64,000 nt of DNA from Hymenobacter mellowenesis. Its GTDB lineage: Bacteria > Bacteroidota > Bacteroidia > Cytophagales > Hymenobacteraceae. The position numbers and the translations under genes are program-made. Under the pieces are notes generated by a model. The model was given only the letters and a program-made list of their open reading frames with translations, was not told the origin of the DNA and did no database searches. How positions within the stretch are numbered: position 1 is the stretch's first letter; the number at the start of each line of letters is the position of its first letter. The stretch is from contig NZ_JAUQSX010000002.1 of assembly GCF_030581005.1 (NCBI RefSeq), positions 248,001 through 312,000 of the forward strand, in the 5' to 3' direction. Shown here piece by piece: positions 55,646 through 59,650 of this stretch.

Positions 55646-56497
55646 CTAAAAGCGTTTTACACCCAGCACCTTGAGCACCGTGTAATGCAGTTGCGGGTTG
55701 CCAAAGTTGCCCTGAAACGTAGTGTCGGTGCGTAATCGAATACTGAGGTAGTCGTTGGGCCGAACATCGACCCGGCCTTGGTGGAATTCCTCTAACCACG
55801 CCGTATCGGCCATTTTGGCGGGAATGGTGTGGTTTTTCAAAACCAATTCCCACATAGCTTCGCCCATAAAATCGGGCCGCTTGATTTTAACTAGGTACTC
55901 GTTTTCGGACGTTTCGGTGCTGGTGGCCAGCAGCGCCCGCAGGTTTGAGGTATCGAAGCCGGGATTGAGGCGGGCATTCCCGACGGACGACCGGTAGTCG
56001 GCGTAGTCGCCGGGCCGCAGCAGCGCGGCGGCCCGCACGATGTCCTCCATCAACCCCACGAGCTTGAGGGTGGAAAGCTGGCCGGGTACCATCAAGGGGT
56101 TGAAGGTTTCGGTGGGGGCCATCGATTCCAGGGCGATGCGCAGGTTTTCGATTTCCTGCGCATCGGTGAAACCGGTTTTGCCTTCGAGCAGCTTCAAGAG
56201 CTGGTACTTCGCTTTGAGCAAAAAATGGCCGACCAACTTTTTCCAGTCGAAGCCCTGGATGGCTTCGTCGGGGATGCCCCGCACCAGGATGGCCAGCTTC
56301 GAGCGGATGGAACCAGCCTCGACGTCGTCCAGAATCAGTTCGGCGTGTAGCTCGGGCAGAATGGACTGCGCCAGCAACTCATCGAATTTCGTGAAGGCGG
56401 TTACCAGGTCGGCAATGGCCTTGAACACGCGTTGCGGGGTCTGGCTTTGGCGCTCAAACTGGACGTACAATTCGAATTCGGCAACGACGGCTTCCAT
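55646..56497 (-). CDS. Unknown protein next to type ISP restriction gene
   Basis: Protein of 283 residues that I cannot assign. N-terminal half is helical (FELYVQFERQSQ, FKAIADLVTAFTKFDELLAQ, DEAIQGFDWKKLVGHFLLKA); the C-terminal half is more beta-rich (NEYLVKIKRPDF, VLKVLGVKRF). It lies 67 bases after the 3' end of the restriction gene's C-terminal segment on the same strand and has no other partner, so it may be part of the same defence module (inference). No membrane helix or signal peptide. Start ATG 56497. Confidence 0.7.
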   Translation of the reverse strand: MEAVVAEFELYVQFERQSQTPQRVFKAIADLVTAFTKFDELLAQSILPELHAELILDDVEAGSIRSKLAILVRGIPDEAIQGFDWKKLVGHFLLKAKYQLLKLLEGKTGFTDAQEIENLRIALESMAPTETFNPLMVPGQLSTLKLVGLMEDIVRAAALLRPGDYADYRSSVGNARLNPGFDTSNLRALLATSTETSENEYLVKIKRPDFMGEAMWELVLKNHTIPAKMADTAWLEEFHQGRVDVRPNDYLSIRLRTDTTFQGNFGNPQLHYTVLKVLGVKRF

Positions 56498-56564: not shown

Positions 56565-56870
56565 TCAGGCCGACGGCTTCAATGGCGACTGCGCCGCCAG
56601 CGCATCCACAATTTCCATGGTTTGCACGCTCACGGTGCACACGCGGGCCAGCAGGTCGGCAACCTGCTCAACGTGGTCGGCAAAGCGGTAGGTGTCGAAG
56701 TGCGCCCGGATAGTGGGGTCCTTGGGCGTGCGTTCCTTGTACTGGTCGAGCACCCACTCTAAAGCCGAGCGGTTGCCGAGGCGGTAGCGCCAGGCGGCTT
56801 CGGGAATGCCGGTAATGACGTCGTCCTCGAAAAGTGCAATAGTGCCGGCAGCCGGGTCCGCCTTGAGGCG
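56565..56870 (-). other. Out-of-frame C-terminal coding segment of type ISP enzyme
   Basis: Read in the frame ending at 56565, this stretch gives RLKADPAAGTIALFEDDVI, then IPEAAWRYRLGNRSALEWV, then LDQYKERTPKDPTIRAHFD and DHVEQVADLLARVCTVSV. This is the kind of conserved C-terminus seen in type ISP/Type_ISP_C enzymes (WRYRLGNRSALEWVLDQY is the hallmark). It lies just beyond the 10-bp repeat tract and is out of frame with the upstream enzyme by one base at the current copy number. No ATG begins it. Confidence 0.88.
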
Positions 56871-59650
56871 TGGTTTCCGCTGGTTTCCGCTGGTTTCCGC
56901 TGGTTTCCGCTGGTTTCCGCTGGTTTCCGCTGGTTTCCGCTGGTACGTTTTAGAGTCGGGTGTGGTTCAGCTTTTTCGTAATTAATGTGGAGTGCTAAAA
57001 GCTGCGCACCACCAGCGCTCCAGGTTGCAAAGTCCGGATAAAAGGGCAGGCGGGGGAAATCTTGTTTCAGGTTCTGGGCGTAGGCGACACGGTAGTGAGG
57101 GTCGTGCAGTACGGCGTAGGCGTAGTGGAATATTTGCTCCCCGCTGATGCTGGCGTCGCTATAGTGTGTGCGGAATTGCGCAAGGCCCCAAGCGGTGATA
57201 TTGGCTTGTTTGTCGCCGTTTGTGTTCTTATAATCGAGTGGAATGCATTGCGTGCTAGCACCAGCTCCTACGTAATGGTAATCTGTTGCAACTTCTGCTG
57301 TGCAGACCATGAATGGCTTTGCTGAATTAGGGCCAGTCAACAACATCACAGTACCAGTCGCGCCGATTTTTTTACCAAACAGACCTTGTTCGTCAACAAA
57401 AACCGACGAACGATAAATGAATCGTTTCACGAAAGGCCTGTAATCGTAAGGAACGATGCGCCTCTTATCAAGGGGTTCCCGTCCACCTTTGTCCAACTTG
57501 CTTTTCAAGTTGCGGGACCATTTGAAGGTGAGTGCAACATCGGAAGCGAATACATGCTTAACGCCCGGCTTGTCATATTCATCAATAAGATATCGCATTT
57601 TCTCAGCCACAGTTTCTACAGTCTCTCCCGTAACCCATTCATCTCGACCTGAATTAATGCCGGTACCATAGTGTCGAAACAGAGCCCGCTCCCCCGCAAT
57701 ACTTTTCGCGCCTTTTGTTTCCTTATCAATCAGCGGCACCAGGCTTTCCCAGTCGTTGTCCGTTTGGCCCAGCCAGTTGCCTTTGGTGTCGGGCTTGATG
57801 CGGTCGAAATCGAGGGCTTTAAACCTGGTTTCGTGGAGGAAGGTAAGCTTGTCGGCAGCCGTTTCCAGGGCGGGGCGGCCGGCGTAGTGAATTTTGGCAA
57901 GCTGGCCCTTGCGCTTGGGCTGCTTGATAAAAAAGGCCATGGCCACGCCCGTCTGGATGCCGAATACATTGTGCTTGGTGCCCGAGAGCTTGGGGTTGGC
58001 CCGCACGTCGCCACCAAGGTCCACGAGGTAGATGTCGGAAAACTCATCGGCCACCGACTTGCGGAAGCCGTCGAAGGTACGCGAGTGAATGAAGCTGCTG
58101 TTGGTGATGAAAGTGAGCACGCCCTTATCGGCCAGCCGGTCGCTGGCCCAACGAAAAAACCGGGCGTACATGTCGTAGAGCTTGGTTTTTTGGGCGGTAC
58201 TGCGGGCAATGTACGTGTCCTTGATGCGCTTGTCGACCTCCTTGTAAGTGCGGTTTTTGTTGTTGTCGTTCTCGTTTTGCTGGTTGGCGTTGTAAGGCGG
58301 GTTGCCGATGATGACGGATAGTTCCCGCTCGTTCTGGCGCCTGATGCGCTGGGCGTTTTCCAGGCCCAGGCCGAAGCTGAGGCCGAGCTGCCCACGCCGG
58401 GTTTTCTGAAAGCCCACGTTGTCAAGGGTGTCCACGAAGCAGATGTTGTGAAACTCGGCGTAGGCGCCCATCTTCTGCTTGTAGGTGTACTCGATGTTGA
58501 GGTTGGCGATGTAGTAAGGCAGAATGGCTACCTCGTTGGCGTACAGCTCGTGCTGGTATTTGTGGGCCAGGGTCTTTTTGGGGAGGTATTCCAGCAGTTC
58601 CGTGATAAAGGTGCCCGTGCCCGTGGCCGGGTCCAAAATTTCGACGCCCTTGTCGCCGAGCAGCTTGTCGAAATGCTTCTCGGTGAGGTGTTCGGTGCTT
58701 TCAATCATAAAGCGCACCACCTCGTTGGGCGTGTACACGATGCCGAGGCGGTCGGCCCCTTTGGGGTTGTAGGCTTTGTAGAAGTTCTCGTACACCACCT
58801 TCAAAAATTTCTGCTTCTCCTTGTGGCTGGCAATGCCGGAGGCCTGGGCATTGATGACGTCGAAGAAGGGCCGGATGCGCTCCAAGGTGTCGCGCCGGGT
58901 AGAGCCGGTGAAGAAGGTATTGATGACCTGCTCCAACTCGTGAGCAATGTTATTCTCGCGGTGAAACTGCGTCTCATCAAACACCCGGTTGAAGATGTCC
59001 TCGGTGAGAATGTGCTGAATCATCATCTCGCGGGCTTCGCTCGCCCCGAAATCGGGGTTGATGCTGTCCTGGCCCAGCACCACGAAATCGGCTAATTTGG
59101 TTTTGAACTTGGCGTTGGTTTTTTCGGCCGCTTCAATCACGTTGCGCAGGCTCCCGACCACCCCGGGCAGGTCTTGCCGAAACTGCTCGATGGCCCGCCG
59201 AAACGTTCGTACCTCGGGCCGCTCGTAATTAAGGAACTGGCCCAGCAGGCGGTCAGTCGCCGCGTCGTCGTCCAGTAGCACCCGCCCGGCCTCGCTGCCC
59301 GCCTGAATGAGCACCAGGGTGCGCGAATCTTCAAACAGAATGTTATCCTGCGGGTAGCCTTTGGCGAATTTCTTCTGGATTTCCTCGTCCAGGTCGTCGC
59401 CGGTATCCTTCGCTTCCCAGTAGCCCCAGCTGAGGCGCAAGGCATCCTTCACGGTGCCATCCGGCCGAATCATGTTGCCCTTGATGGCCTTGTAATCGAG
59501 CTGGGGCACCAGCAGAAAATCCTTCTGGCGGCAATACTCATTTAGCAGGCGCTCAAATGCGCCGCTAATGGCAGATTCTTTGGCGGTGCCCCCGTAGTGA
59601 ATGAGTTGGGCAATTTCGTTCTGATAGCGTTGGACTGCCTGGCGCGACAT
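56759..59650 (-). CDS. Type ISP restriction-modification enzyme, currently frame-shifted 3' end
   Basis: Current product is 963 residues, from ATG 59650. N-terminal nuclease-like part: RPDGTVKDALRLSWGYWEAK (Glu79, Lys81 as part of a PD-(D/E)xK site). MTase core: LDPATGTGTF at 339-348 (motif I) and GNPPYN at 449-454 (motif IV), which define an N6-adenine methyltransferase. There is no helicase domain, unlike LlaGI-type ISP enzymes. The C-terminus is read through seven 10-bp repeats (56871-56940) and ends in an unrelated tail (SGNHASRRTRLPALLHFSRT) because the conserved C-terminal part is in another frame. Confidence 0.88.
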   Translation of the reverse strand: MSRQAVQRYQNEIAQLIHYGGTAKESAISGAFERLLNEYCRQKDFLLVPQLDYKAIKGNMIRPDGTVKDALRLSWGYWEAKDTGDDLDEEIQKKFAKGYPQDNILFEDSRTLVLIQAGSEAGRVLLDDDAATDRLLGQFLNYERPEVRTFRRAIEQFRQDLPGVVGSLRNVIEAAEKTNAKFKTKLADFVVLGQDSINPDFGASEAREMMIQHILTEDIFNRVFDETQFHRENNIAHELEQVINTFFTGSTRRDTLERIRPFFDVINAQASGIASHKEKQKFLKVVYENFYKAYNPKGADRLGIVYTPNEVVRFMIESTEHLTEKHFDKLLGDKGVEILDPATGTGTFITELLEYLPKKTLAHKYQHELYANEVAILPYYIANLNIEYTYKQKMGAYAEFHNICFVDTLDNVGFQKTRRGQLGLSFGLGLENAQRIRRQNERELSVIIGNPPYNANQQNENDNNKNRTYKEVDKRIKDTYIARSTAQKTKLYDMYARFFRWASDRLADKGVLTFITNSSFIHSRTFDGFRKSVADEFSDIYLVDLGGDVRANPKLSGTKHNVFGIQTGVAMAFFIKQPKRKGQLAKIHYAGRPALETAADKLTFLHETRFKALDFDRIKPDTKGNWLGQTDNDWESLVPLIDKETKGAKSIAGERALFRHYGTGINSGRDEWVTGETVETVAEKMRYLIDEYDKPGVKHVFASDVALTFKWSRNLKSKLDKGGREPLDKRRIVPYDYRPFVKRFIYRSSVFVDEQGLFGKKIGATGTVMLLTGPNSAKPFMVCTAEVATDYHYVGAGASTQCIPLDYKNTNGDKQANITAWGLAQFRTHYSDASISGEQIFHYAYAVLHDPHYRVAYAQNLKQDFPRLPFYPDFATWSAGGAQLLALHINYEKAEPHPTLKRTSGNQRKPAETSGNQRKPAETSGNHASRRTRLPALLHFSRTTSLPAFPKPPGATASATARL
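56871..56940 (-). repeat. Seven perfect 10-bp tandem repeats (phase-variation tract)
   Basis: Seven uninterrupted units of TGGTTTCCGC (plus strand); on the coding strand GCGGAAACCA. Because 10 is not a multiple of three, each gain or loss shifts the frame. The unit encodes an open decapeptide pattern (AETSGNQRKP) in every frame, so no stop arises within the tract. Location near the 3' end of the restriction enzyme gene separates the catalytic domains from the C-terminal segment. Confidence 0.95.

Follow-up and report, generated by a model that had tools for sequence, protein, structure and literature searches.

A decamer repeat tract as a candidate on/off switch in a Hymenobacter restriction-modification gene of the DrdV-like type IIG class

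The restriction-modification gene and its repeat tract

The window, the 64-kb stretch of DNA analyzed here, carries on its minus strand a restriction-modification (RM) gene whose open reading frame contains the decamer GCGGAAACCA in 7.4 perfect tandem copies (period 10, 74 bases, TRF score of 148; Table 1). TRF reported eight rows for the whole window, with the runner-up scoring only 86, and no other array in the window passed the perfect-array criteria (unit of 4 to 12 bases, at least three copies, and at least 24 bases). When the window was dinucleotide shuffled 200 times, the longest perfect array with a period of 4 to 12 spanned 24 bases versus the 74 observed, and a search for two tandem decamers with at most one mismatch found no second site in the 6.42-Mb genome.

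The decamer is a non-triplet unit, and the tract is free of stops in all frames. When the copy number was varied in silico, 2, 5, 8, and 11 units gave long frames of 1,011, 1,021, 1,031, and 1,041 amino acids (aa) ending at 56565, 6 and 9 units gave 990 and 1,000 aa ending at 56668, and 7 units gave 963 aa ending at 56759. At 7 units of GCGGAAACCA, the conserved C-terminal segment (C segment), the last tenth of the gene, is out of frame. The gene therefore has what is expected of a phase-variable RM gene, namely, a non-triplet tandem repeat within the ORF whose unit number sets the frame. A preliminary description of this DNA had given seven perfect 10-bp units, a 963-residue product with its stop at 56759, products of 1,031 and 1,021 residues with the stop at 56565 after adding one unit or removing two, and a third state ending at 56668 (here, 6 and 9 units); the array, the ORF, and the copy-number sweep bear out all of these figures. 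A separate guide polypeptide starting from GTG at 56753 (62 aa) was discarded on inspection; it lacks the first part of the C segment.

Ten neighboring proteins were scanned, nine with housekeeping-type families and one without a family, and no defense island around the RM gene was found among them. The downstream neighbor (55646 to 56497, minus strand, 283 aa) matches the NCBIfam family LAPAL putative phage structural protein at 65.6 bits against a cut-off of 60 and has a weak match to PADLOC PDC-S42.

Table 1. Features of the RM gene in window coordinates
Feature	Position	Strand	Evidence
RM ORF as present, 963 codons + stop	56759..59650	-	ORF list
Nuclease region, about residues 1-150	59201..59650	-	Conservation over 48 sequences
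Coupler PF22240, residues 155-277	58820..59188	-	Pfam
N6-adenine methyltransferase PF02384, PF07669, residues 283-546	58013..58804	-	Pfam
Variable base-reading block, about residues 641-800	57251..57730	-	Identity profiles, trees
Type_ISP_C in-frame part, PF18135 2-263, residues 657-908	56927..57682	-	Pfam
Decamer array, 7.4 x GCGGAAACCA	56871..56944	-	TRF, perfect-array scan
Conserved C-terminal guide segment, 101 codons + stop	56565..56870	-	PF18135, alignments, dN/dS
Stop in use at 7 units	56759..56761	-	ORF, copy-number sweep
Third-frame stop (6 or 9 units)	56668..56670	-	Copy-number sweep

Enzyme class and position of the tract

The preliminary description had assigned the enzyme to type ISP. 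A coupler, a gamma-type methyltransferase, and Type_ISP_C do occur in one chain (PF22240, PF02384, PF07669, PF18135), which is a type ISP feature, but the assignment is not supported. Pfam detected no ATPase/translocase motor family between the nuclease and the coupler of the window protein, and the alignment with LlaBIII begins only at residue 746 of that enzyme, leaving LlaBIII 1-745 without a counterpart. DrdV, by contrast, aligns over the entire protein (window residues 1-905 to DrdV 1-912 and the C segment to DrdV 941-1027), starting at residue 1 and without a gap of motor size. In the N-terminal nuclease region, P63 and D64 are invariant and E79 and K81 are at least 90% conserved over 48 sequences, residues which we take to be a PD-(D/E)xK motif. 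Judged by this end-to-end alignment, the N-terminal nuclease, and the lack of a detectable motor, the window enzyme is DrdV-like type IIG rather than type ISP.

When the protein was aligned to PF18135, positions 2-263 of the family matched in one frame and positions 245-341 in the other. The N part aligns to LlaBIII up to residue 1461, and the C segment aligns from LlaBIII 1492. The guide subdomain of LlaBIII (residues 1448-1578) is reported to be the recognition subdomain with the highest conservation in type ISP enzymes; in LlaGI, the core packs against the guide, which steers the DNA and reads no bases, and the base-reading loops sit outside it (PMC4872093). By this alignment, the tract is placed inside the guide subdomain, between the recognition-domain core and most of the guide. 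Because it lies at the equivalent of LlaBIII 1461-1492, the short form would retain the nuclease, the methyltransferase, and the recognition core, with most of the guide gone. The preliminary description was thus right about a conserved C segment beyond the tract; it had, however, taken the tract to part the nuclease and methyltransferase from that segment, whereas the division falls between the recognition core and most of the guide. In a structure model of the H. ruricola enzyme, the tract corresponds to residues 895-912, and residues 902-910 are among five stretches with a pLDDT below 50, in keeping with a loop that may tolerate variable length.

Tracts and frame states among related alleles

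Related alleles were collected from 80 loci, from a search of 120 genus genomes, and from 120 listed proteins of 7,998. The clade was delimited at ≥66% identity to the query and holds, among the matches listed, 19 alleles with a readable linker. The genus label rests on named records among the loci rather than on the metagenomic proteins; for P0004, the source gives the name Janthinobacterium lividum. Duplicate records were counted once (P0001 as the window, P0007 as L005, P0016 as L007, P0018 as L006, and P0017 as H. caeli, whose gene is split over two contigs, the linker being taken from the second, L102). The count leaves out P0014 and L009/L090, which end before the linker, L092/L110 of G057, where the gene is disrupted and the linker gone, and L093, which is 34% identical.

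Among the matches listed, 11 of the 19 clade alleles have a non-triplet tract at the linker, 5 of them in frame and 6 out of frame (Table 2). Five of these tracts were read from DNA and six were deduced from peptides, and six unit sequences were seen or deduced. The tract-free alleles (P0004, H. artigasi, P0008, P0009, P0012, P0013, P0015, and H. caeli) are in frame in 8/8 cases.

Table 2. Clade alleles with a tract at the linker
Allele	Tract	Frame	Source
Window	7 units of GCGGAAACCA	Out	DNA
H. ruricola L004	CACCCCCCCG x5	In	DNA
H. sp. CA2-7 L006	ACACGCCC x9	Out	DNA
H. fodinae L007	ACAACCCC x12	Out	DNA
G077 L091	CACCCCCG x3	Out	DNA
P0005	GCGGAAACCA as in window, about 9 units	Out	Inferred from peptide
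P0002	ACACGCCC as in L006, about 5 units	Out	Inferred from peptide
P0003, P0006, P0010	CACCCCCG as in G077, about 4 units	In	Inferred, 11 residues
P0011	ACAGCCCC	In	Inferred from peptide

Two comparisons pair one unit with different counts. P0005 has the same decamer as the window in about 9 units, as deduced from its peptide, versus 7. Adding one octamer to the G077 tract yields GTYTPAPPHPRTPA and the linker length seen in P0003, P0006, and P0010, although two or three residues after GTYTPAPPHPRTPA are not alike. Both frame states therefore occur among natural alleles, which come from different species or metagenomes, not from one strain. With other repeats at the same spot in relatives and both frame states represented, the tract is likely an on/off switch, and we consider it probable from these sequences that gain and loss of units randomly turn a DrdV-like type IIG enzyme on and off in Hymenobacter. 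Comparison across relatives, in which both states are found, lends good support to the earlier claim that the gene is phase variable. It is highly improbable that the unit number reflects an error of assembly or sequencing in a gene that is truly in frame: tandem arrays are prone to miscounting and the count in the window comes from the assembly, but arrays of other units occupy the same place in four further genome records, three of them out of frame, so that an error in a single assembly cannot account for the array itself.

None of 102 more distant proteins among the matches listed has a repeat at the linker (Fisher P = 6e-11, relatedness ignored). Among distant loci whose linker could be read, 71/71 are in frame; two of these, both of one Prochloron MAG (L054:8791-8821 and L074:8794-8824), have 4.4 copies of the heptamer AAATTCA at the linker. 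By the perfect-array scan, all five arrays in the window and 122 kb of other Hymenobacter loci (with some overlap) lie at the linker. Outside Hymenobacter, it returned 40 arrays from 74 loci (910 kb), so perfect arrays are by no means unusual elsewhere, a background that speaks against the switch reading. Among the 120 genus genomes, the decamer tract occurs in the window only, and all 17 matches to the octamer pattern, confined to G024 and G104, fall at this gene. A family survey with PF18135 matched 34/204 genomes, with linker-split matches only in the window's genome (G000), G024, G104, and G077; in G122, the match is split elsewhere, with a stop. Arrays of at least three copies and 20 bases were found neither in the 16 family loci read (L122-L137) nor in 29 phylum loci (L161-L189), of which L161 has an 11-base run of A.

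The phylum search matched 66/395 genomes, most of whose loci are more distant and motor-bearing by length. L166-L189, other phylum loci, and, once in the genus, L093 are longer relatives with frames of about 1,600 to 1,700 residues, which are probably true motor-bearing type ISP enzymes. Another phylum relative, L162 (G339:C11:104563-108210), has about 200 extra residues in an open frame between query positions 823 and 826. Among plasmids, 257 records matched, one at 60 to 80% identity, and viral contigs yielded no relative.

Selection on the C segment and exchange of the recognition block

A rival reading takes the out-of-frame alleles to be decaying pseudogenes and the arrays to be neutral expansions in a dispensable linker. 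Against it, the out-of-frame alleles read in DNA contain no internal stop in the C segment, whose dN/dS is 0.045 to 0.24 in the 9 computable pairs of 15, with 0.045 found between two out-of-frame alleles; these values are rough, with synonymous sites close to saturation, and the other six pairs are saturated (five with H. fodinae and window/CA2-7). That non-triplet tracts recur at a single site and that 5/11 are in frame, a share no different from one third (P = 0.52), also speaks against decay. In its favor, out-of-frame alleles make up 6 of the 11 with a tract, the G057 gene is disrupted, and the G077 gene bears a second lesion of 1 base near codon 361 (L094:2540-2640; a two-contig assembly), either real or a sequencing error. 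Together with the H. caeli gene on two contigs, these cases indicate that gene decay occurs too, yet as an account of the tract alleles we regard it as distinctly improbable. Several unit sequences occur at one linker in an otherwise conserved gene, a pattern that suggests selection for switching at this position and not for any particular repeat.

Additional copies or fragments of the segment were also seen. In H. ruricola, a relic (L004:10968-11069) that is 76% identical to residues 58-91 of the C segment is found some 2 kb downstream from the intact gene, and extra C fragments downstream of the gene occur in L046, L062, L063, L073, and L075. The window's genome has a second guide-like stretch, 43% identical to the C segment (L003; G000:C6:43515-43718), in a 275-aa frame for which no match to the N part was found.

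The recognition domain is mosaic. In 40-residue blocks, the window and P0006 proteins are 87 to 100% identical over residues 1-640, 20 to 42% over 641-800, and 66 to 82% beyond, while P0005 and P0006 have the 641-800 block in common (80 to 92%) and tracts that are not alike. Trees of residues 1-620 and 630-885 conflict in a manner matching block exchange. In the C-segment tree, in which only one inner branch is well supported, the CACCCCCG, CACCCCCCCG, and ACACGCCC alleles group together (92/96) and the ACAACCCC and ACAGCCCC alleles fall elsewhere. Taken together, the block profiles and conflicting trees demonstrate, at the level of sequence, that alleles swap the block spanning about residues 641-800 independently of the tract, and the C-segment grouping indicates that the tract type travels partly with the guide. 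Such a swap would presumably alter the recognition sequence, leaving the recognition block variable independently of the switch. The final decamer copy encodes the K-P of a KPRLK motif found in tract-free guides, which suggests that the unit may have grown out of the linker itself.

Proposed switch and comparison with known systems

Under the on/off reading, slipped-strand mispairing, reported as the usual mechanism for such tracts, would add or remove units. With 2, 5, 8, or 11 units, the guide would be in frame and the full enzyme made; with 7 units, the short form without most of the guide would neither cut nor methylate, and a population would contain both restricting and silent cells. Since cutting and marking reside in one chain, a single frameshift would alter both.

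The main alternative is that the tract switches function, the guide-less form, with its nuclease, methyltransferase, and base-reading core, still methylating or reading an altered site and only the full form cutting normally. Because the guide of LlaGI reads no bases, the short form may by analogy retain some activity. The base-reading loops of LlaGI lie outside the guide (PMC4872093), a C-terminal tract alters the recognition site of H. pylori JHP1272 (PMC3936762), and the NgoAV tract is reported to yield two HsdS forms, full-length and truncated, that differ in specificity. We nevertheless judge this alternative unlikely, given that 71/71 distant loci have a conserved C segment in frame, that the LlaGI core packs on the guide (PMC4872093), and that the short-form tails differ from one allele to another, which argues that no common short form is retained. 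A version with two dials, in which free block exchange is combined with a fast repeat of changing unit that toggles the guide alone to give a methylate-only or other-site form, seems quite unlikely. With the tract inside the guide, the role of this conserved, non-reading subdomain is directly testable.

Should the on/off reading be true, repeat-driven RM switching extends to DrdV-like type IIG enzymes and to an environmental genus of Bacteroidota. The preliminary description had considered a decamer-repeat type ISP switch in an environmental member of the Bacteroidota undescribed, a claim borne out in part. Repeat-switched type IIG enzymes are already known from C. jejuni and H. pylori; what is new is the enzyme family (DrdV-like) and the host. 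In the open full-text literature, we found neither a repeat-switched DrdV-like enzyme nor a report with both "phase variation" and "Hymenobacter"; most subscription journals lie outside it, making absence weak evidence. A P. laudensis paper with the terms "type ISP," "phase variation," and "tandem repeat" was set aside, as they occur in unrelated places.

DrdV itself (type IIG; PDB 7lo5/7lvv), at about 1,030 residues, has the domain order of the window enzyme and is 48 to 49% identical to the H. ruricola model. LlaGI and LlaBIII (type ISP) have a coupler, a methyltransferase, and a recognition domain made up of core, jaw, and guide in common with it but possess an ATPase motor, which the window protein lacks (PMC4872093); type ISP frameshifts in H. 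pylori are stated not to be caused by repeats. In switched type III mod and type I genes, repeat length likewise sets the frame of a DNA methyltransferase, but the enzymes are of other types, and the surveys quoted covered types I and III (PMC7394358). JHP1272 (HP1353-HP1354) of H. pylori is a type IIG enzyme in which a repeat adds or removes a C-terminal piece; unlike in the window gene, the piece alters specificity, the tracts are homopolymeric, and the recognition domain is MmeI-like (PMC3936762). Cj0031c of C. jejuni, like the window gene, encodes a single-chain type IIG enzyme with a tract in the ORF before a C-terminal part, and like the window family it has tract-free alleles and a variable recognition region; its tract changes are reported to alter methylation and phage restriction, and its authors predict that they abolish both activities together (PMC4889913). 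As far as tested, Cj0031c belongs to a different subfamily, and its homopolymeric G tract, found in an enteric pathogen, contrasts with the 8- and 10-base units of changing sequence in Hymenobacter, an environmental member of the Bacteroidota.
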